Source: a virus. From it: a stretch of DNA of 48,969 nt. Every line of letters starts with the position of its first letter. Positions within the stretch are counted from its first letter, which is position 1. The DNA is taken from the IMG/VR virus record IMGVR_UViG_3300025154_000142, positions 1-48,969 of that record; one strand, given 5' to 3'. The position numbers were made by a program, and so were the translations under genes. Below are positions 9,974 to 47,041 of the stretch, in pieces. The notes beneath the pieces are model-generated. The model was not told the DNA's origin, searched no databases, and saw only the letters and a program-made list of their open reading frames with translations.

Positions 9974-10519
9974 ATGGCCAAAAAGGTAGCAGGAAACGAC
10001 CCCACCCCGATCATTAGAGAACAATATCCGGAGATGCTGGAGGCGGTCAAAGCCGTATCCAAGGCGGCGTCCAATGCCGTAAATATACATAAGCGGGCCG
10101 TGAAGGGAAACCTTCTCGACACCGTGAAGGCGTATGTGGAGATACGCCGGGTGTCGGAAGCCATATCCGACGGGGTGAAAGTCATCAACGGAATCCTGGC
10201 ACAGTTGAAGGAGACGGAGATACCGGAGGGCATGGAGAAGGAGGGGGTGTCTTCGCTGACGCTGGACGACCCCAGCTACATGTGCCGGGTAGGGGTTTCC
10301 GTCACATTGCGGGCCAGCGTAAGAGAGAACATGAAGGAGGAGGCAATTCGGTGGCTCCGGGAAGGAAAGCTGGAGGATTACATTCAGCCCACCATCAACG
10401 CCTCGTCCCTCTCCGCTCTCGCCAGGGAGATGGCCGAGGAGAACAGAGAGCTACCGGATAACATCTTCAACGTGTTCCAACAGCACAGCACCAGCGTAAC
10501 GGCAATAAAGGGAAAATAG
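9974..10519 (+). CDS. Conserved phage protein next to the SSB-like gene
   Basis: ATG 9974 follows AGGAGGAAG; 181 residues. Long helices (about residues 18-85) precede a small beta part and a C-terminal INASSLSALAREM...ELPDNIFNV...TSVT segment that I have seen in uncharacterised phage proteins. Codon use is intermediate between its neighbours and the highly expressed set. The coiled N-terminal half suggests an oligomer. Role unknown; replication or recombination is suggested only by position. Confidence 0.65.
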   Translation: MAKKVAGNDPTPIIREQYPEMLEAVKAVSKAASNAVNIHKRAVKGNLLDTVKAYVEIRRVSEAISDGVKVINGILAQLKETEIPEGMEKEGVSSLTLDDPSYMCRVGVSVTLRASVRENMKEEAIRWLREGKLEDYIQPTINASSLSALAREMAEENRELPDNIFNVFQQHSTSVTAIKGK

Positions 10520-10548
10520 GGCCGCCTATCTTTTAAGGAGAGGAAGAA

Positions 10549-11430
10549 ATGGCAAAAGCCTCAGAAGGGAAGATAGCGAGGAAGGAAGAAGAGGGAATCC
10601 AAACCGCCGATTCGATGCCGGAGTTCATGAAGGGAGAGCAGGGCCGGGGGACGGAGATGGTAGACCCACGGGACCTGGAGCTCCCAAGACTCAAGCTGCT
10701 GCAAGACCTGTCAGATGAGCCCAAGACCTTCGATGGTGCGAAGCCGGGCATGCTGTGGCACACGGTTCTCGAGAGGGCCGTGCAACTCCCGGTGCACATC
10801 ACTCCGGTGTTCGTGGATACCCGGTACATCCTCTGGAGGCCCCGGCACATGGGGGGTGGAATCCTCGCCCGTTCCGACGATGGGCGGAGATGGTCTCCGG
10901 AGAAGGGAGAGTTCAGAATCAAGCCGACGAAGGGAAGCGAAGACGAAGTGGTCTGGCGTCTGGCTTCGACGGTGGACGCCTCCGGCCTCGCGAATTGGGG
11001 GTCTTACGACCCCCGGAATCCGAACAGCCCCCCGGCCGCTACGAAGATCATCGCGGTGGTGGCGGTAATTCTTGAGCCGGAGTACCGGGAGATGTCCCCG
11101 GTGGTCATCGCCCATCAGCGTTCTCAGATCAAAGTGGCCAGGAGGCTGGTGACGAAGATTCGAATGTCCAGAGCGCCCGCATATGGGCAGGTGCACCGGG
11201 TAGAGTCAGTTCAGGACCAGAACAACGAAGGGCAGAAATTCTTCAATTTCCGGTACACGGCCTCCGGCATCCTGCAAAGCAAGGAGGACTTCGACGCCAT
11301 GAAGGAGTTCTACGAGAAGTTCCTCAAGAGCGGGATTCAGATCCGTGACGTGGAAGGCATGCAGGGAGATGTGCCGGACGTGGCGGGGGCGGAGGACCCC
11401 GAGGCGAGCGACCCGAAGGCGAAGTACTAG
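10549..11430 (+). CDS. Putative single-stranded-DNA-binding-type phage protein
   Basis: ATG 10549 behind AAGGAGAGGAAG; 293 residues. The charged N-terminus leads to ELPRLKLLQDLSDEP, then a beta-rich core with RYILWRPRHMGGGILARSDDG and RSQIKVARRLVTKI, and an acidic C-terminus (AGAEDPEASDP), as expected of proteins that recruit partners through an acidic tail. The pattern resembles phage proteins often labelled ssDNA-binding. Codons are strongly GC-ending, so expression is probably high, as needed for coating single strands. The assignment is by resemblance and context, not by a diagnostic motif. Confidence 0.5.
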   Translation: MAKASEGKIARKEEEGIQTADSMPEFMKGEQGRGTEMVDPRDLELPRLKLLQDLSDEPKTFDGAKPGMLWHTVLERAVQLPVHITPVFVDTRYILWRPRHMGGGILARSDDGRRWSPEKGEFRIKPTKGSEDEVVWRLASTVDASGLANWGSYDPRNPNSPPAATKIIAVVAVILEPEYREMSPVVIAHQRSQIKVARRLVTKIRMSRAPAYGQVHRVESVQDQNNEGQKFFNFRYTASGILQSKEDFDAMKEFYEKFLKSGIQIRDVEGMQGDVPDVAGAEDPEASDPKAKY

Positions 11431-11898: not shown

Positions 11899-12085
11899 TG
11901 GTGAGCAGGAACGAATGATGAAGTTTCAGGAACTGTATGAGGAAAACGGGGAATCCTTGACGGGGTGGGACAAGGGATTCGCTGATGACATTGTGGGGAA
12001 ATTTGTGGAATATGGGGCCGAGATGTTCTTATCTCCCAACCAATGGAAGCAGGTGAACCGCATCCTAGAGAGGATGGGAGGATGA
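11885..12085 (+). CDS. Hypothetical protein before the polymerase
   Basis: The best start is TTG 11885, 7 bases after GGAGGG (11872-11877), giving 66 residues; it overlaps the upstream gene by 14 bases. The product is a helical, acidic protein with a C-terminal PNQWKQVNRILERM helix. Its stop overlaps the polymerase start (ATGA at 12082). Function unknown. Confidence 0.55.
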   Translation: MSLTDGEQERMMKFQELYEENGESLTGWDKGFADDIVGKFVEYGAEMFLSPNQWKQVNRILERMGG

Positions 12086-13929
12086 GGGCCGCCGATTCGA
12101 TGTCCATAGATAGGATGTTTAAGGCCGTCAAGGCGTCGAAAGAATTGGTTTTTGACATTGAGACGACGGGGGTGGATTGGAAACGGCATTTCGCGGTGGG
12201 GTACGTCATAACGGTCGGACTCAGGCCGGAGGACACTTACTACGTCCCTGTACGGCATGGAGGAGGCAGAAATATTTCGAAAGGGCACACTCCGGACGGG
12301 CCGGAGGACGTGGGTCCAAGGGTGCTTCCCTTTGAGAAGAGGTTTAACGCAGAGATCGCCTCGCGGACCGATCTATTGGTAGTGGGGCACCACTTAAAAT
12401 TTGATCTCCATATGGCCGCGAACCACGGCATCATCTTTAACGGTCCTCTCGAATGCACCATGGTGAATGCGGCCCTGATAGATGAGAACGTCGGGAAATA
12501 CTCTTTAGCGGATTGTGCCAAACGGGCGGGCGTGACCGCTAAATTAAAGGAAGAAATTAACCAGCACATAGCCGAAAAATTTAAGCTCGATCCGAAGGAC
12601 CGAGGCTTGATGGCGCATTATTGGAGGCTATCTGGGGACGATAAAATGGCGATAGACTACGCCTCCGGGGATGGGGTGACGACGTGGGAGCTTCATAAAT
12701 GGCAGCAGATTCAACTTGACTCCCAGGACCTTAGGCGGGTATGGGCTGTGGAATGCCGAGTCTTGCGCACATTGTTCCGCATGGAGCGGCACGGGGTGAG
12801 AGTGGATGAATCTAGGCTTCTGCAGTTGAAGGAGGAGATGGAAAAGAAGCTTGAGAAGGCACTGACCGCGCTTCCGGAGAACATGAACGTTCGGTCTGCG
12901 CCAGAGGTTAGGAAGTTTGTGCGGGACAAACTCGGCCGCACGGACTTTCCACTCACCCCGAAAGGGAACCCCAGTTTTCCCGAGCAATATCTTCTTACCT
13001 TCGAGGAAGGGCGGCGCGTGATAGCCGCCAGGAAAATTACCACCATCATAAACAGCTTTATTACTCCTACTTTGGATAGGCATTTATGGAAGGGAAGAGT
13101 ACACTGTAATTTTAATCAGCTTAAGGGAGACGAATACGGTACGGTAACAGGAAGGTTGTCTAGCGATAGCCCAAACATGCAGCAAGTACCGAAACGGGAT
13201 AAGGAACTGGCCCCCTTATTTAGATCAGTATTTGTGCCAGATGAAGGGACAAAATGGTCTACAAACGATTTTAAGCAGCAAGAGCCGGTGGTGTTTACGG
13301 AATACACTCAATGCAAGGCCCTAGTGAAGGGGTATAACTCCGACCCCCCTGTGGACATTCACTCCGTGGTGGCCAAGATGATAGGGGTGGAGCGGGACCC
13401 CACAGCTAAACGTATGAACATGGGCATGCTAAATGGGATGGGGAAGAAGCTCCTCGCAAAACATTTGGGCGTAGACATAGACGTGGCCACGGAGTATAGG
13501 GACCAATATGACCGCGCATTTCCTGAGGCAATGGCGTTCATGAAAAGCGCCGAGAGGCGGGCGGTGGCAAGGGGCTACGTTAAGACTTTCCTGGGGCGTA
13601 GGAGAAGATTCCCTCGGGGGGAATTCGCGTATAAGGCTGGTAATTCGGTGGTACAGGGATCCTCAGCGGACATCACGAAAGTAAAAATGGTGGAGATAGA
13701 TGATTATCTTAAATCCGTGGGGCGGCCATATCAGATGCTCCTGCAGGTCCATGATTCCCTCGATTGGCTGGTGGAGGAGGGGGCCAGGGGACAAACGATA
13801 AATGGTGAGTGCCTTAAAATAATGCAGGACTTCGGTCCAGACCAATTGGTGCACCTCGTACTGGTCCCTCTCCGGGTGGATGGACACGTTGGAGATAGCT
13901 GGGGTGATGCTATCTTCGGTGAGGATTGA
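12082..13929 (+). CDS. dpoZ: Family A DNA polymerase, DpoZ type
   Basis: ATG 12082; 615 residues. The N-terminal half is a 3'-5' exonuclease: D25-I-E27 (Exo I), GHHLKFD (Exo II) and YASGD (Exo III). The C-terminal half is a polymerase: motif A with D396 in NDFKQQEP (usual DYSQIELR), motif B around K443 in AKRMNMGMLNGMG, YVKTFLGRRRRFP, and motif C H557-D558-S559. Motif B has Met and Asn where Pol I has Phe762 and Tyr766, and motif C has Ser for Glu883. No 5' nuclease domain. Placed at the head of a purZ-mazZ-datZ cluster, it is very likely the polymerase that copies 2-aminoadenine DNA. Confidence 0.88.
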   Translation: MRAADSMSIDRMFKAVKASKELVFDIETTGVDWKRHFAVGYVITVGLRPEDTYYVPVRHGGGRNISKGHTPDGPEDVGPRVLPFEKRFNAEIASRTDLLVVGHHLKFDLHMAANHGIIFNGPLECTMVNAALIDENVGKYSLADCAKRAGVTAKLKEEINQHIAEKFKLDPKDRGLMAHYWRLSGDDKMAIDYASGDGVTTWELHKWQQIQLDSQDLRRVWAVECRVLRTLFRMERHGVRVDESRLLQLKEEMEKKLEKALTALPENMNVRSAPEVRKFVRDKLGRTDFPLTPKGNPSFPEQYLLTFEEGRRVIAARKITTIINSFITPTLDRHLWKGRVHCNFNQLKGDEYGTVTGRLSSDSPNMQQVPKRDKELAPLFRSVFVPDEGTKWSTNDFKQQEPVVFTEYTQCKALVKGYNSDPPVDIHSVVAKMIGVERDPTAKRMNMGMLNGMGKKLLAKHLGVDIDVATEYRDQYDRAFPEAMAFMKSAERRAVARGYVKTFLGRRRRFPRGEFAYKAGNSVVQGSSADITKVKMVEIDDYLKSVGRPYQMLLQVHDSLDWLVEEGARGQTINGECLKIMQDFGPDQLVHLVLVPLRVDGHVGDSWGDAIFGED

Positions 13930-13931
13930 GG

Positions 13932-14387
13932 GTGGCCAATAACGAATTACAGTTCCAGGGAGAGCTTATACGGGACATAAACCGCGCTGGGGGGCATGCG
14001 TTCAAAATGTCCAGTACGTATAAGGTGGGGGTAGCGGATTTGTACGTGCGCCTTCCTGCTGCCCTAAAGTGGGAGGGGTTGGAAGACTATGTGGGGTTTA
14101 TAGAGACGAAATTTACGAGAAACTTCTCAAAGTTATTAATAGTGGGGATAACCGAACTACAGAAAAAGTTCCTTAAGAGAGAACAGGACGCTGGCGGAAT
14201 GTCAGCGTGGCTCCTGTGTGTAAAGGTGGATGAAAGGGGTAGAGCGCCTTACTGGATAGCCTATGGAAGCCGGGACCTTGAGGTTAAAACGGCCTCTATA
14301 TTCGAGATAAAAGAGTTGGGCGTGATTAGGGAAGTAGGGAAACCGTGGGACGTATATAAAATAATTGAGCTCTTGGAGAGACCGTAA
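13932..14387 (+). CDS. PD-(D/E)XK-type nuclease, VRR-NUC-like
   Basis: GTG 13932 is 7 bases after GAGG; a TTG at 13926 is also possible. 151 residues. An early Gln-Gly-Glu helix (QFQGELIRDINRAGG) is followed by KVGVADLYV, VGFIETKF and a helix with a conserved Gln (ITELQKKFLKREQ), fitting the E...D...E-x-K...Q layout of small VRR-NUC and Holliday-junction-resolving nucleases. It probably cuts branched or recombining DNA during replication. It overlaps the kinase start by one base. Confidence 0.75.
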   Translation: MANNELQFQGELIRDINRAGGHAFKMSSTYKVGVADLYVRLPAALKWEGLEDYVGFIETKFTRNFSKLLIVGITELQKKFLKREQDAGGMSAWLLCVKVDERGRAPYWIAYGSRDLEVKTASIFEIKELGVIREVGKPWDVYKIIELLERP

Positions 14388-15022
14388 TGGACATAGGGCC
14401 TTATAGGACTGCCTTTGCAGCCAGTTTCAGAGGACTGACTAAGCGTACGCTGGTGGTTGCGTTTGGGGCCACGAACTCCGGAAAGACTGTATTGTGCAAT
14501 CAGTTGGAGAATGAGGGGTGGGGGGTGTATCGTACGTCAAAGATGGTGGAGAGTGGTATGAGAGTCCTCCACGCAAAGGCGGGCGGGGCGGGAAAAATGG
14601 AAAACCCCGATGCCCCAAAGGAACTTACTGTAATCTTGAGGGCCGGAGTTGAAGAAGCCATGGCTGCATGGAGGAGGTTTGATGGGGGCCACGGCATAGT
14701 GCTGGAAGGGTTCCCAAGAAATTCGATGCAAATGAATATGATAACGGATTATGTATGGGAGCGCTTTGTCGTTGGAGTCCACGTGAGAGCCCCCCTTGAG
14801 GAAATAAAGCTCCGGGCCGAGATGGAACAGGACCCATATCGGCGGGACATAGAGATGGCAAGGGCTACACAGGAAAACATCGACCTCTATGGTACGGTGG
14901 AAGAGCATTTAATAAGATTAGGAGTGGAAATGTGGCGGTATGATTGGATTCCGGACACAGGTCCGGATGAAGACTACTACATCGGGCATCGAGGGGAGTA
15001 CTTGTATTACAGGGTATCATAA
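14387..15022 (+). CDS. Adenylate-kinase-like nucleoside monophosphate kinase
   Basis: ATG 14387 follows TTGGAGAG and shares a base with the previous stop; 211 residues. The P-loop is GATNSGKT (about residues 26-33), and IVLEGFPRNSMQMNM matches the DGFPRT segment of adenylate kinases, with Arg available for the NMP site. A lid-like insertion with YRRD follows. It lies 10 bases before purZ, between polymerase and precursor genes, so it may phosphorylate the deoxynucleotide made by that pathway (dZMP) or another dNMP. The substrate is inferred from context only; it could equally be a general dNMP kinase. Confidence 0.75.
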   Translation: MDIGPYRTAFAASFRGLTKRTLVVAFGATNSGKTVLCNQLENEGWGVYRTSKMVESGMRVLHAKAGGAGKMENPDAPKELTVILRAGVEEAMAAWRRFDGGHGIVLEGFPRNSMQMNMITDYVWERFVVGVHVRAPLEEIKLRAEMEQDPYRRDIEMARATQENIDLYGTVEEHLIRLGVEMWRYDWIPDTGPDEDYYIGHRGEYLYYRVS

Positions 15023-15032
15023 AGGAGAAGGT

Positions 15033-16112
15033 ATGAGTAAATACGAAGGATTCGTGGAGAAGGGCGGGGCGTCGGTACTAATCGATGGGCAATGGGGTTC
15101 CACGGGGAAGGGGCTGGCTGCGGCAGCCATAGCCGTGGACAATGCCGGAAAAATCAGGGTGGCTACCACCAATGCCAGTTCCAACGCCGGGCACACGACG
15201 GTGAAGGAGAACAAAAAGTTCGTGTGCTTCCACTTGCCCACCAGCGGGGTGATGGACGCAAAAGCGATAATTTATCTTAACGCGGGGTCCATCATCGATC
15301 CAAAGGTCTTAATGGACGAGATGAAGACATTGGGAGTGGACAAGGAGCGGGTGGTGGTGCACCCTCGGGCAGCGGTGATTACGCAGGAATGCAAGGAAGA
15401 AGAAGCAGACATAAACTCTTCTGCCACGAAATTGGCCTCCACCCAAAAGGGTGTCGGGGCCGCACTCTCAAGGAAAGTCAAGCGCATGCCGGGAGCCACC
15501 GTGGGGGAAAACGAACGCATGCGGGATGAGTTTGGTGGCAGGATAAGGACCATGAATCTAAACACCATGATGGCGGCGGGGGCCTCCGTAATGGTAGAGA
15601 TTCCCCAGGGCTTCGGCCTGGGCCTGAACAGTGGGACGGCGTACCCCTACTGCACTTCGAGAGAGGTCAGCGTTCAGCAAGGACTCTCTGACGCGGGCAT
15701 CCACCCGAAATTCCTCCTCAATACTCTGATGGTTCTCAGAACCTACCCCATCAGAGTAGGAAACATCATGAACGATAAGGAGATGGTGGGATTCAGTGGC
15801 CCCCACTACCCGGACCAAAAGGAAATCCGGTGGGAGGAAATAGGGGTTAGCCCCGAGATGACCACCGTAACAGGCCGCGTTAGAAGAGTATTCACTTTCT
15901 CGTTGAGGCAATATTTGGATGCATACTATCACAACTACCCTACACACGTCTTTCTCAACTTCGTGAATTATCTAAAATCACGCGAAGAATTTCTAAGCCT
16001 TCTAGGGCTGATACAGTCCATAAGAGTTCTCCCTATTTCATACGGCCTGGGACCGCAGGTGAAGGACATCGAACATGATACGGCGGCTGTGGTAAGAAAG
16101 ATGGGGTGGTAA
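15033..16112 (+). CDS. purZ: PurZ, deoxy-succinyladenylate-type synthetase for 2-aminoadenine
   Basis: ATG 15033 follows AAAGGAGAAGG; 359 residues, shorter than PurA (about 430). The P-loop-like G-Q-W-G-S23-T-G-K-G keeps the PurA frame but has Ser23 where PurA has its catalytic Asp (Asp13 in E. coli), the hallmark of PurZ. His54 in NAGHTTV matches catalytic His41. Later matches are KGVGAALSRK, EIPQGFGLGL and TYPIRVGN. The C-terminal region is shorter than PurA. PurZ joins dGMP to aspartate to give dSMP, which host PurB converts to dZMP. Neighbours (MazG, HD phosphohydrolase, DpoZ) confirm it. A host-type PurA is unlikely given Ser23. Confidence 0.93.
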   Translation: MSKYEGFVEKGGASVLIDGQWGSTGKGLAAAAIAVDNAGKIRVATTNASSNAGHTTVKENKKFVCFHLPTSGVMDAKAIIYLNAGSIIDPKVLMDEMKTLGVDKERVVVHPRAAVITQECKEEEADINSSATKLASTQKGVGAALSRKVKRMPGATVGENERMRDEFGGRIRTMNLNTMMAAGASVMVEIPQGFGLGLNSGTAYPYCTSREVSVQQGLSDAGIHPKFLLNTLMVLRTYPIRVGNIMNDKEMVGFSGPHYPDQKEIRWEEIGVSPEMTTVTGRVRRVFTFSLRQYLDAYYHNYPTHVFLNFVNYLKSREEFLSLLGLIQSIRVLPISYGLGPQVKDIEHDTAAVVRKMGW

Positions 16113-16481
16113 ATGATGCCTGATCATCTCGCTCCTCCCAATCTCCCGCCGCACCACCGCCTCCCGCCGCGCCACCGCCTCCACTCCTCTAATAGGGGAG
16201 AGCTAGCCAAGGAGTATAACGCTGAGATACGGGTATTTGTAGATGCTATGCGGTATAAGCTTCACGTGAACCGGCATAAGGGGAAGTGGATAGATAAGCC
16301 CTTAGTTCCGGCGGTAGAGGCGCTCCATAAGGAGGTACAGGAGCTACATGACGCTTTGGGCCGGGACAACGTGTTTGAGATATTGCAGGAGGCCGCTGAC
16401 GTAGCAAATATGGCCATGATCGTTTTCAACATACGGATGTATCTCGCGGCGAAGGAGTCTCTAGGTGAGCCTATTCAATAG
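16113..16481 (+). CDS. mazZ: MazG-like nucleotide pyrophosphohydrolase, MazZ type
   Basis: The frame begins at ATG 16113 (or 16116), directly after the purZ stop; no other start lies before the fold. 122 residues. Helix 1 is AEIRVFVDAMRYKL; metal ligands are E74-x2-E77 (EVQEL) and E93-x2-D96 (EAADVAN), as in all-alpha NTP pyrophosphatases. In Z-phages MazZ turns (d)GTP into (d)GMP to feed PurZ. Odd: residues 11-24 are a His/Pro/Arg run (PPHHRLPPRHRLH) encoded by a 40-base block identical to part of the tape-measure gene. The core fold starts near residue 30. Confidence 0.85.
   Translation: MMPDHLAPPNLPPHHRLPPRHRLHSSNRGELAKEYNAEIRVFVDAMRYKLHVNRHKGKWIDKPLVPAVEALHKEVQELHDALGRDNVFEILQEAADVANMAMIVFNIRMYLAAKESLGEPIQ
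16143..16182 (+). repeat. 40-bp exact repeat, copy 1 (mazZ 5' end)
   Basis: Identical over 40 bases to 27922-27961 and in the same orientation on this strand. It holds two near-copies of an 18-base unit (CTCCCGCCGCRCCACCGC). Here it is read as His/Arg/Pro; in the tape-measure gene the other strand is read as Gly/Ala. Confidence 0.95.
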
Positions 16482-17064
16482 GGCGGTACGGGACCAGCGG
16501 TGGGTGAACCGTTGGGGGACCATTAGGAGGTTGAAGGAACAGAGCATAGCCGAGCATCAGTACTTCGTAGCACTCTACTTCCTACAGATATGCCGTGATC
16601 TCGAAATTTCTTATGTGCAGGACGCCTGGGGTGTGGCCATGTGGAAGGTGTTGACCCACGACCTCCCTGAAATAATTACGTCCGATACCCCTGGACCGGT
16701 AAAGAGGGCCCTAAACGCGGAGGGAATAAGTGCCTGGGTGGAGGATCAGTTATCAAACCGTATACCGAATTGGAAGCCCCCCTCAAACGTGACCGTTAGG
16801 GAAGATGAGGAGATGGACGCCATAATGAAGGTGGCGGATGATTTTGAGGCTGCGATGTATATAATGGATGAGGCGTCTATGGGAAACAAAAACGTCAAGG
16901 ACGTTCAGGAGTACGTCCGCAGAAAATTGAGTAAGTCCCTAAGGGCCTTAATTAGGGTGCTCCCGGACAGGGAAGAAAAAATCCTTTCCATGGAGAGCCA
17001 CATGAATGGGCAGTTGGGGTCCAACCTCAGTGGTGAGTACCCGGCGATGGATGAAGACAGATGA
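16465..17064 (+). CDS. datZ: HD-domain phosphohydrolase, DatZ type dATPase
   Basis: GTG 16465 is 7 bases after AAGGAG, inside the end of mazZ; 199 residues. It has the YfbR-like HD fold: W17 near the base site, H31 in AEHQYF, H65-D66 in THDLPEIITSDTPGPVK and D125 in VADDFEA, the four usual metal ligands. YfbR cleaves dNMPs; the Z-phage relative DatZ removes triphosphate from dATP so that adenine is kept out of the genome. Position directly after purZ and mazZ favours DatZ. Motifs alone do not separate a 5'-nucleotidase from a triphosphohydrolase. Confidence 0.87.
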   Translation: MSLFNRAVRDQRWVNRWGTIRRLKEQSIAEHQYFVALYFLQICRDLEISYVQDAWGVAMWKVLTHDLPEIITSDTPGPVKRALNAEGISAWVEDQLSNRIPNWKPPSNVTVREDEEMDAIMKVADDFEAAMYIMDEASMGNKNVKDVQEYVRRKLSKSLRALIRVLPDREEKILSMESHMNGQLGSNLSGEYPAMDEDR

Positions 17065-18494
17065 ACGCAGATGAACGCAGTTGGTTTCTAAAGGGCAAAC
17101 CCCACGCCGTACAGATGAGAGCACTGGAACTGTCGAATCGGCGAAAAGGTTTCTTACATTTCGAAGAACAAGGGTTAGGAAAGACAGCCATAGTCTTGGC
17201 AGAATATGCGGATTTCGTTAACGAAGGGCTGATAGATGGTATGGTAGTTGTGTGCCCTAATTCTCTCAAAATTAATTGGTTTAAGGAGGCGGATAAATGG
17301 GGTGCGAAATATAAAACTAGAATCGTGCTTCCAGAGGACATAAAAAGTCTTGACCTGAACAAAATGAAACCGCCTTTCATCATAACAATAAACTATGAAT
17401 CAATACGAAAGGGGACGCGGGGGCTGGAGGCCCTAAACGCTATAATGAAGGGGCGGAGGAGTATGGTGGCGGCTGACGAGAGTATAAATATAAAAAATCC
17501 CCACTCTAATCAGACCTTCGAGGCCCTGCAACTTTCAAAGGGGGCCGCGTTTACAAGGTCCATGAGCGGGGCCCCCATAAGCCAAGGTCCCCACGATTTG
17601 TGGGCGCAAGGAAGGTTCGTAGGTCTATATAATGGAATCAGAGCCACGCAATTTAAATTGCGGTATTGTAGAATGGGGGGGTTTCAAGGTAGGCAAGTGG
17701 TAGGAGTCAAAGAAGATTTGGTGGAGGAGTTGTGGCGCACCGTCGACGAAAATGGGTTCCGAGCCCTTAAGGAAGAATGGACGGACCTGCCCGAAAAGAT
17801 ATACGCCCTTCCTAGAATGATCACCATGACGAAGGAACAGAGAAGGATGTATCTAGAAATGAAGGAGGAGTTTATAACTTATTTAGACGAGACCGATGAA
17901 GGCTCCTTCGTGGAAGCGCAAATGACCATGACGAAGCTCATGAAACTTCACCAAATATCCTCCGGCATAATAATTGACAATGAAGGACTGGAGCACTTTA
18001 TCATACCCACGGAAGAGAATCCTAAGATGCAAGAAGTGTTGCGCGCTTTGCAGGAAACCAGGGGTAAGGTATTGATTTTTACGCACTTTAGGCTGTCCAC
18101 CAAGGCCGTGTTCGAATATTTGGGGAAGAGAGGATATGAACCCGTCCTCCTAGAAGGCGGCATGAAGGTTCAGGAGGTGGAGAATAGAAAGGAAATATTT
18201 AACGACGACTCCAAATGCCGCGTAGCGGTGCTCCAGGCGCAATCGCACATGTATGGGCATACTCTCCTAGGGGGGAAAGGAGAGGATAGATGCTCCACGT
18301 CCTTCTATTATGAGGTTGATTATAATCTAAATACTCGGGTGCAGACGGAGGACCGGAACCACCGGTACGGTCAAGATAAGGCCGTGGTTTATGTGGATTT
18401 CATAGCATCAGAGATAGAAGAGATCGCTGTGACGGCCCTGCAACGCAAGAAGAACGTCGCTAAGCTGATATTAGACACGTTTAAAGGCCGTTGA
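17061..18494 (+). CDS. SNF2-like SF2 helicase/translocase
   Basis: ATG 17061 overlaps the datZ stop; 477 residues. Motif I EEQGLGKT, motif II DESI (where SNF2 proteins have DEAH), motif III region SGAPIS, and C-terminal LIFTHF and QTEDRNHRYGQ (motif VI, as in SNF2). It probably moves on duplex DNA, for replication or recombination. A 10-base direct repeat (ATGAACGCAG at 17061-17080) covers the start; only the first ATG is in frame. Its end overlaps the opposed lysozyme gene by 14 bases, with no terminator between them. Confidence 0.88.
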   Translation: MNADERSWFLKGKPHAVQMRALELSNRRKGFLHFEEQGLGKTAIVLAEYADFVNEGLIDGMVVVCPNSLKINWFKEADKWGAKYKTRIVLPEDIKSLDLNKMKPPFIITINYESIRKGTRGLEALNAIMKGRRSMVAADESINIKNPHSNQTFEALQLSKGAAFTRSMSGAPISQGPHDLWAQGRFVGLYNGIRATQFKLRYCRMGGFQGRQVVGVKEDLVEELWRTVDENGFRALKEEWTDLPEKIYALPRMITMTKEQRRMYLEMKEEFITYLDETDEGSFVEAQMTMTKLMKLHQISSGIIIDNEGLEHFIIPTEENPKMQEVLRALQETRGKVLIFTHFRLSTKAVFEYLGKRGYEPVLLEGGMKVQEVENRKEIFNDDSKCRVAVLQAQSHMYGHTLLGGKGEDRCSTSFYYEVDYNLNTRVQTEDRNHRYGQDKAVVYVDFIASEIEEIAVTALQRKKNVAKLILDTFKGR

Positions 18495-45471: not shown

Positions 45472-47041
45472 TTACGGCCCCTCTCGCGGTCTTTTTACCC
45501 CACGTTCCGGCCGTCTTTTTACGGATCAGCTTTGAGACCGCTCCAGATGCGGCGTCCACCTGATCGTCGTGGTCGCCTTTATTGAACACCTCCATCTCGT
45601 CCAGGAACGCTTCGTTCCACGGCGCGGCCAACACGTCCACGTTCCCGTTCTCCGCTGCCGAGGCCAACACGTCCGCCCGGGCCACCTTGGAACCCGTCGC
45701 CCTCTGCCCCCCGGCGGAGAGGCCCTGCAGGACCGTCCGCACGTAATGTTCCACCACCGTCTTTCCAGAAGATCCCGGTTCCTGCTCCAACCATTGCTTG
45801 ATTTCCCGCCCGTCCTTCCAGGCGGTAGACTTCACCCGGTCCTCCACCGTGGCGGGGGACCCACGGAACCTCACCACGTCCAAGACCGTGTAACGGCCCT
45901 TCAACACACCCATCTTACATCCCACCGTCCAATCGGGGTCCTCGTTCCGAACAGACTGCTCCGTAGAGGCGAAATCCCAATACCGCACCACCCTGTCAAA
46001 CTTCTCTGGCGGCTTGCGCACCACGTTAAACCAGTCCCTCTTCATTATCGTGCCACCCGCCACCATGGGGCGCTGCTGGTAGAGGGAGGCCCAATTGTAC
46101 GGCCCCTGATCTATCTTCTTAACCTTGACGTACGCCTCCGAGAACCACCCCGGCCACAGCCTCTCTCCCGGCTTCCGCCCCACGGGATCGTCGAACCGCT
46201 CCGCCAGCATCGGGAAATTCAAGACATACCACCACTCGGAACCGTCCGCCGACCGGACCCATCCCGACCGTCCGTCGTACTTAGCGGGAAGGATGCAGCC
46301 CGGGAGGTCCGACACGTGCCAGCGCGTGTGAATCATGGCGATCCACGACTCCGGCATCATGCGGTTCTTCATGTCTGACCTGTACCATTCAAAGACGCCC
46401 TGGCGGACCGTAGGGCTCTGAGAATCCCGGAAGGATTTAATCGTATCGTCGAAGATGAGGCCGTTCGCCCGGCGCCCTGAAACGGCTTGTCCGACTCCCA
46501 CGCCGCGCCACTCCCCCCCGTTGGTAAGCTGCCAGCGGATCATGGCCCTCGAGGCCGGAGAAACGCGGCACTTGAAAATCTCCTCATACTGGTCCGAGGA
46601 GACTACATCCCGCACCTTCCCACCTATCTCCTCCGCAAACTCCGACGTGTGGGTCCCGAAGATGATGGAATGCCCGGGGTGCCGCCCGAGATAAAAGGCC
46701 GGATAACGGACCGAAACGTAGGTCGTCTTAGCCGCGCCGGGGGGCGCAAACACCATGAGGCGCTTAATTTCCCCCCGGTCCAGGGCCTCCAGGGCGCAAT
46801 TCATCGCCCGGTGATGTTCAGCTGGAGGATAATGGGGGTCGAGATAAGAAGAGAAGGGGTTCAAGCTTTCCTGGGCCAGCCTTGACGTTTCCTCACGTTG
46901 TATATAATCTAAAGCCACCGCCTCATGCGCGGAAAGGGACTGCACGAATTCAACTTGCTCCTCGGGACCCATGGTGCGGAACAGATCCGTCCAGGTGGTG
47001 AAGCCGGAGGGGAGAGTGGGGGATTCCATCATTTGCGGCAT
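45464..47041 (-). CDS. terL: Terminase large subunit
   Basis: 525 residues. ATPase: APPGAAKT (Walker A), GLIFDDTIKSFRD (Walker B region), and a coupling motif after it. Nuclease: VVRYWDFAST (first Asp), RYTVLDVVRFRG, and the C-terminal DHDDQVDAAS with the last acidic residues. It cuts concatemers and drives DNA into proheads. ATG 47041 has a weak site (GAAAGGG 11 bases before); ATGs at 47032 and 47029 are alternatives. No small terminase was recognised beside it. Confidence 0.92.
   Translation of the reverse strand: MPQMMESPTLPSGFTTWTDLFRTMGPEEQVEFVQSLSAHEAVALDYIQREETSRLAQESLNPFSSYLDPHYPPAEHHRAMNCALEALDRGEIKRLMVFAPPGAAKTTYVSVRYPAFYLGRHPGHSIIFGTHTSEFAEEIGGKVRDVVSSDQYEEIFKCRVSPASRAMIRWQLTNGGEWRGVGVGQAVSGRRANGLIFDDTIKSFRDSQSPTVRQGVFEWYRSDMKNRMMPESWIAMIHTRWHVSDLPGCILPAKYDGRSGWVRSADGSEWWYVLNFPMLAERFDDPVGRKPGERLWPGWFSEAYVKVKKIDQGPYNWASLYQQRPMVAGGTIMKRDWFNVVRKPPEKFDRVVRYWDFASTEQSVRNEDPDWTVGCKMGVLKGRYTVLDVVRFRGSPATVEDRVKSTAWKDGREIKQWLEQEPGSSGKTVVEHYVRTVLQGLSAGGQRATGSKVARADVLASAAENGNVDVLAAPWNEAFLDEMEVFNKGDHDDQVDAASGAVSKLIRKKTAGTWGKKTARGAVNA

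Follow-up and report, generated by a model that had tools for sequence, protein, structure and literature searches.

A candidate nucleoside-monophosphate kinase encoded directly upstream of purZ in a probable viral Z-DNA operon

Our analysis of the window, a 48,969-nucleotide stretch of viral DNA (IMG/VR record IMGVR_UViG_3300025154_000142), indicates that the gene directly upstream of purZ is best read as an accessory, convergently recruited nucleoside-monophosphate (NMP) kinase of the pathway to 2-aminoadenine (Z). In the reading we favour, to which we give a rough probability of 0.45, the product would be a diverged adenylate-kinase-type P-loop NMP kinase, expressed with purZ and serving 2-aminoadenine DNA synthesis with dZMP as its main substrate; we infer its catalysis, its substrate and its benefit to the phage alike. 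The gene lies in a tight run in the order polA, VRR-NUC-like gene, kinase candidate, purZ, probable mazZ, datZ and helicase, as follows.

12043-13929, + strand: polA, family A DNA polymerase, DpoZ candidate (Pfam DNA_pol_A, E=4.9e-56)
13926-14387, + strand: putative VRR-NUC-like small nuclease, conserved just upstream of purZ in relatives (homologues at the corresponding site of many purZ loci; no Pfam match)
14387-15022, + strand: candidate nucleoside-monophosphate kinase (P0001), an ORF of 211 aa (AAA_18, E=2.2e-5; motifs GATNSGKT and IVLEGFPRNSMQ)
15033-16112, + strand: purZ, 2-amino-2'-deoxyadenylosuccinate synthetase (phrog_1211, E=3.8e-63; Adenylsucc_synt, E=2.2e-30; QWGSTGKG)
16113-16481, + strand: probable MazZ/MazG-like pyrophosphohydrolase, assigned by position (weak matches to phrog_9860, 2e-4; PRA-PH, 0.02; MazG, 0.09)
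16465-17064, + strand: datZ, dATP triphosphohydrolase with an HD domain (phrog_7076, E=2e-20; YfbR-like, E=1.5e-16)
17061-18494, + strand: SNF2-type helicase, the last gene of the run

The PurZ of the window matches a family labelled '2-aminooxy adenylosuccinate synthetase' (phrog_1211), and its QWGSTGKG carries Ser at the Asp13 position, the residue that separates PurZ from PurA, which makes it Z type. The sequence-only reading had named this neighbour purZ, and both the profile match (E of about 4e-63) and the diagnostic Ser bear this out. Beside purZ, the datZ match is strong and the MazZ-type match weak. The DNA of this virus is probably built with Z in place of adenine. No pyrimidine gene (thyX, dCMP deaminase or others) was found in the purZ operon by ORF list, Pfam or PHROGs. 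Further upstream (window 9974-11430, + strand), two ORFs match the Pam3 gp33-like (PF23984) and gp34-like (PF23977) families, which are named after a cyanophage.

The kinase ORF runs from an ATG at 14387 to a stop at 15020-15022. The start codon shares 1 nt with the stop codon of the VRR-NUC-like gene (TAATG), and the 10-nt gap between the kinase stop and the purZ ATG at 15033 contains AAGGAG. GC content by codon position is similar to that of the neighbours, and an equally long stop-free run would arise by chance at the same base composition with a probability of about 8e-6. The earlier description of an ORF at 14387-15022 with GATNSGKT and EGFPRN, 10 bases 5' of purZ, was exact in coordinates, motifs and gap. 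Three segments of the protein (all + strand) were mapped, as follows.

14465-14488, + strand: Walker A motif GATNSGKT, residues 27-34 (G27, G32 and K33 invariant relative to phage adenylate kinases)
14696-14731, + strand: adenylate-kinase-type NMP-binding motif IVLEGFPRNSMQ, residues 104-115 (G108, P110, R111 and Q115 invariant in the alignment)
14840-14890, + strand: short LID-type segment RRDIEMARATQENIDLY, residues 152-168 (R152 and D154 kept; second LID Arg replaced by N164)

The Walker A pattern GxxxxGK[ST] follows a hydrophobic strand (VVAFGATNSGKT, residues 23-34), and EGFPRN occupies residues 107-112. Compared with the adenylate kinase signature [LIVMFYWCA]3-D-G-[FY]-P-R-x3-[NQ], IVLEGFPRNSMQ has a single change, D to E at E107, and among six kinases searched with a regular expression for the NMP motif only the candidate and E. 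coli Adk (FLLDGFPRTIPQ) matched. Ten residues (G27, G32, K33, G108, P110, R111, Q115, R143, R152 and D154) are common to the candidate and all 15 of the 15 aligned viral adenylate kinases. Across the 17,641 ORFs of purZ loci, the candidate is the sole case of a P-loop combined with an intact [DE]GFPR. Of the LID arginines, R143 and R152 are kept and the third conserved position, Arg in the other kinases aligned, is N164. The D to E change in the NMP motif, the loss of one LID Arg and the lack of homologues could point to a protein of kinase fold that has decayed or does not catalyse, such as a PurZ scaffold, but the Walker A Lys, the GFPR Arg, Q115, R143 and R152 are all intact and the ORF is undisturbed, so that we regard decay as very improbable.

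Family profiles place the protein less sharply than its motifs do. Pfam AAA_18 covers residues 27-150 (E=2.2e-5) at 25.3 bits against a family cut-off of 29.4, AAA_17 is likewise under its cut-off (E=0.014), and PHROGs and NCBIfam profiles gave no significant match. The adenylate kinase cut-off was missed (TIGR01351, 13.6 bits against 168, E=0.039; no PF00406 match at E<=1), and neither guanylate kinase (no PF00625 match; z=-0.7 against E. coli Gmk) nor phage dNMP kinase (no phrog_139 or DNMK (PF21448) match at E<=1) was matched. In local alignment, the candidate scored z=4.3 against E. coli Adk and at most 0.8 against Cmk, Gmk, Tmk and a purZ-adjacent dNMK, whereas our own phage adenylate kinase profile, run against the purZ-locus ORFs, gave it E=0.13 with no separation from background ORFs. 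AlphaFold models are of low confidence, with a pLDDT of 33 from the sequence alone and 52 with a phage adenylate kinase alignment, which biases the fold; Foldseek searches with the models returned nothing at E<=0.001, and the top list for the biased model (pLDDT 52, all E>0.001) holds adenylate kinases, APS kinases and a Pnkp. We give the modelled fold no weight in favour of the assignment.

Because the profile scores are below cut-off and the alignment and motifs are Adk-like, we label the candidate as a P-loop protein that resembles NMP kinases and is of adenylate-kinase type, and not as a member of PF00406. Judged from these sequence features, it is probably an NMP-kinase-type enzyme, and we hold the fold assignment with moderate confidence. 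The earlier term "adenylate-kinase-like" therefore stands at the level of motifs, but no adenylate kinase family model is matched significantly. The low, generic AAA_18 and AAA_17 scores and the APS kinases and Pnkp in the list of a low-confidence model would suit a P-loop phosphotransferase whose substrate is not an NMP (but a nucleoside, a sulfonucleotide, a nucleic acid end or a small molecule); this is improbable, however, in view of [DE]GFPR...Q at the right spacing, which is characteristic of adenylate/UMP-CMP kinases, and of the R.D segment with a short LID that follows the NMP motif. A genuine ATP-dependent adenylate kinase, which would act on AMP/dAMP to supply ADP/ATP for replication or energy charge with no special role for Z, is more improbable again: Adk is indeed the closest cellular resemblance and true adk genes occur in some IMG/VR viruses, but these are themselves 27-53% identical to Adk over most of their length and the candidate lies far from them, activity on dAMP would oppose DatZ, and family profiles run over the purZ records detected no viral adk in the vicinity of purZ.

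The kinase candidate is an orphan within the databases scanned. No homologue was detected in 50,697 phage records (E<=10) or in 72,556 plasmids. Targeted scans of IMG/VR and GTDB, which depend on exact matches to short peptides and are therefore blind to diverged relatives, returned only an identical IMG/VR copy, a protein 100% identical to the candidate on contig L001/L003. The seeds for these scans were motif-directed, with two motifs fixed and the remaining residues varied conservatively, and served as queries only. A further hit, L002, was rejected as a chance match to a short peptide of a TPR-like protein.

Kinases of other stocks do occur at purZ loci. Our survey covered 233 loci (172 PurZ clusters at 95%) and counted kinase-type P-loop ORFs of 130-330 aa within 8-10 kb on each side of purZ, or less at contig ends, with AAA, PhoH, RecA-like and clamp-loader ATPases set aside from the NMP-kinase-like count. 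Most of the 233 loci have no NMP-type kinase within this distance, which suggests that host enzymes suffice in most phages; the NMP-kinase-like cases are the window, L034, L043, L017, L182, L209 and L062. The idea that the gene could be an undescribed part of the Z system is supported in part: it is a kinase-like gene of a purZ operon, but not a general component.

In L034 and L043, a phrog_139 dNMP kinase overlaps or abuts the purZ start (E of 1e-20 and 9e-23), with a second kinase beyond thyX. The order there (L034:7899-9960 and L043:4163-6158, both + strand) is kinase, thyX, kinase, purZ, datZ, one phrog_139 kinase abutting thyX and the other overlapping the purZ start, and no mazZ lies between purZ and datZ. 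In L017, a phrog_139 kinase is upstream, separated from purZ by one ORF that is HNH-like by inspection. L182 and L209 encode, directly downstream of purZ and before datZ, a kinase-like domain (GHGRHGKD) and a dATP/dGTP pyrophosphohydrolase in one protein; this fusion (L182:9050-9841 and L209:7643-8401, both + strand), with PF04447 at its C-terminus, stands in place of a plain mazZ. This kinase-like domain is not purZ-specific, since it also adjoins thyX, dCMP deaminase and DHFR in phages of Rhodobacter and Roseobacter in which we saw no purZ. In L062, a thymidylate kinase on the opposite strand, 2.8 kb from purZ, was counted as non-adjacent.

Family profiles over whole purZ records agreed with the survey, extra kinase-type matches being found only far from purZ in long records (G037 and G030, for example). 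The P-loop ORF of L195 was rejected as a kinase, being PhoH, as was the 'phosphofructokinase' beside datZ in Burkholderia phage Bm1 as a second kinase, since it has no P-loop and is DUF6378-like. The latter name (L010:22389-23075, + strand; also the label of phrog_474) is likely a mis-annotation and could mislead kinase surveys. On the IMG/VR contig of L046 (G020), a full-length AAA_18 match (E=3e-7) lies at 45680-46027 (+ strand), some 19 kb away from purZ and inside an open frame of 1154 aa.

The kinase-positive loci fall on separate branches of the PurZ tree, which requires 5 changes, at least 3 of them forced by supported branches. When the kinase was placed at random among the locus genes, the chance of finding 3 of 4 kinase lineages purZ-adjacent was about 0.003, a rough figure that overstates the case because nucleotide-metabolism genes cluster regardless of substrate. 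In relatives, purZ comes after the VRR-NUC gene either directly or behind a DUF5664-like pool enzyme (7 clusters) or other ORFs, and it is this slot that the kinase candidate occupies in the window; L034, L043 and L017 have their VRR-NUC gene on the other strand, with a kinase upstream of purZ. Unrelated NMP-kinase-type genes abutting purZ in separate PurZ lineages fit a recurrent role. It is conceivable, if doubtful, that some Z-DNA phages encode a dZMP kinase themselves, taken up on three or more occasions from unrelated P-loop stocks (adenylate-kinase-like, phrog_139 and MazZ-fused); parts of the route from dGTP to dZDP would then be phage-encoded, with less dependence on host guanylate kinase.

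PurZ converts dGMP and Asp to dSMP (PMC12884076), and enzymes for the steps from dSMP through dZMP to dZTP have not been found on phage genomes (PMC8342488, PMC12884076), in agreement with the earlier statement that the described pathway leaves dZMP to host kinases. In the proposed scheme, PurZ would make dSMP from dGMP, a lyase, presumably host PurB, would free dZMP, the kinase candidate would move the gamma-phosphate of ATP onto dZMP to give dZDP, and host NDK would complete dZTP. The lyase step, likewise assigned to the host, may also have a phage counterpart: in Streptomyces phage Spocter (PQ114745), a PurZ0-type gene is followed after about 4.4 kb by one for a PurB-like adenylosuccinate lyase (L015:25550-26923, + strand), a candidate phage-encoded dSMP lyase.

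Why dZMP should be preferred is suggested by the neighbouring genes. A dADP product would oppose DatZ and a dGDP product would drain the substrate of PurZ, so that dZMP fits all neighbours; the same argument applies where a kinase is fused with MazZ, the maker of PurZ's dGMP. Gln at Q115 occupies the position that we take to contact adenine N1/N6 in adenylate kinases, a face common to 2-aminoadenine and absent from guanine, which hints at a 6-aminopurine substrate. We therefore see dZMP as the likeliest single substrate, with somewhat less than an even chance of being the main physiological one, and dTMP or dCMP as the main alternatives. The latter would belong to a broad or pyrimidine/purine dNMP kinase (for dTMP, dCMP or dGMP, for example) that reuses dNMPs set free by host DNA breakdown or by pyrophosphohydrolases of the phage itself, and sits beside purZ through the clustering of nucleotide genes. 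In favour of it, many phages have dNMP kinases, the fusion's kinase domain adjoins thyX, dCMP deaminase and DHFR in the Rhodobacter and Roseobacter phages, and thyX lies between the two kinases of L034 and L043. The absence of thyX, dCMP deaminase or any other pyrimidine gene from the window's operon, the drain on PurZ substrate by a dGMP kinase, the return of dATP to DatZ by a dAMP kinase and the base-contact Gln all argue against such recycling, which we consider unlikely, though the most serious of the alternatives.

If the candidate does act on dZMP, it would fill a host-assigned gap in the published Z-DNA pathway. It would also explain how Z phages could work where the host's kinases do not accept dZMP, and the protein would be a tool enzyme for dZTP production in cells. 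Together with the kinase::MazZ fusion, the purZ-abutting dNMP kinases offer several clonable candidates. Among host kinases, it is guanylate kinase to which the phosphorylation of dZMP is often ascribed. The type of solution is familiar from other modified-base phages, since T4 gp1 phosphorylates hydroxymethyl-dCMP; the Z-DNA case would be new.

Compared with known kinases, the candidate shares with the adenylate/UMP-CMP kinases of PF00406 the P-loop, GFPR, a Gln four residues beyond it, the R.D segment and a short LID, and differs in the D to E change, the replaced second LID Arg, a 20-residue N-terminal extension and an altered C-terminus. Phage dNMP kinases (phrog_139, PF21448; T4 gp1 type, PDB 1DEK) are likely of the same reaction class, but the candidate is unlike those of phrog_139 in sequence, with a pairwise z of 0.8 and a weak hhalign match over 105 columns. 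The Z-DNA papers examined (PMC8342488 and PMC12884076 among them) describe no kinase as part of Z-DNA operons, the word 'kinase' is absent from the main text of PMC12884076, and in ten named purZ phages neither annotation nor profiles show an NMP kinase close to purZ. The known Z-genome operons (PurZ, MazZ/DUF550-DUF5664, DatZ, DpoZ; S-2L, phiVC8, SH-Ab 15497) contain purZ, a MazG-like gene and datZ, as does the window, and most also have polA nearby; the window differs by the extra kinase-like gene directly before purZ. DutZ and DmtZ of PurZ0 phages (PMC12884076) are, unlike the kinase candidate, hydrolases or a transferase, but like it they are nucleotide enzymes that particular lineages have acquired by convergence around a purZ of single origin.
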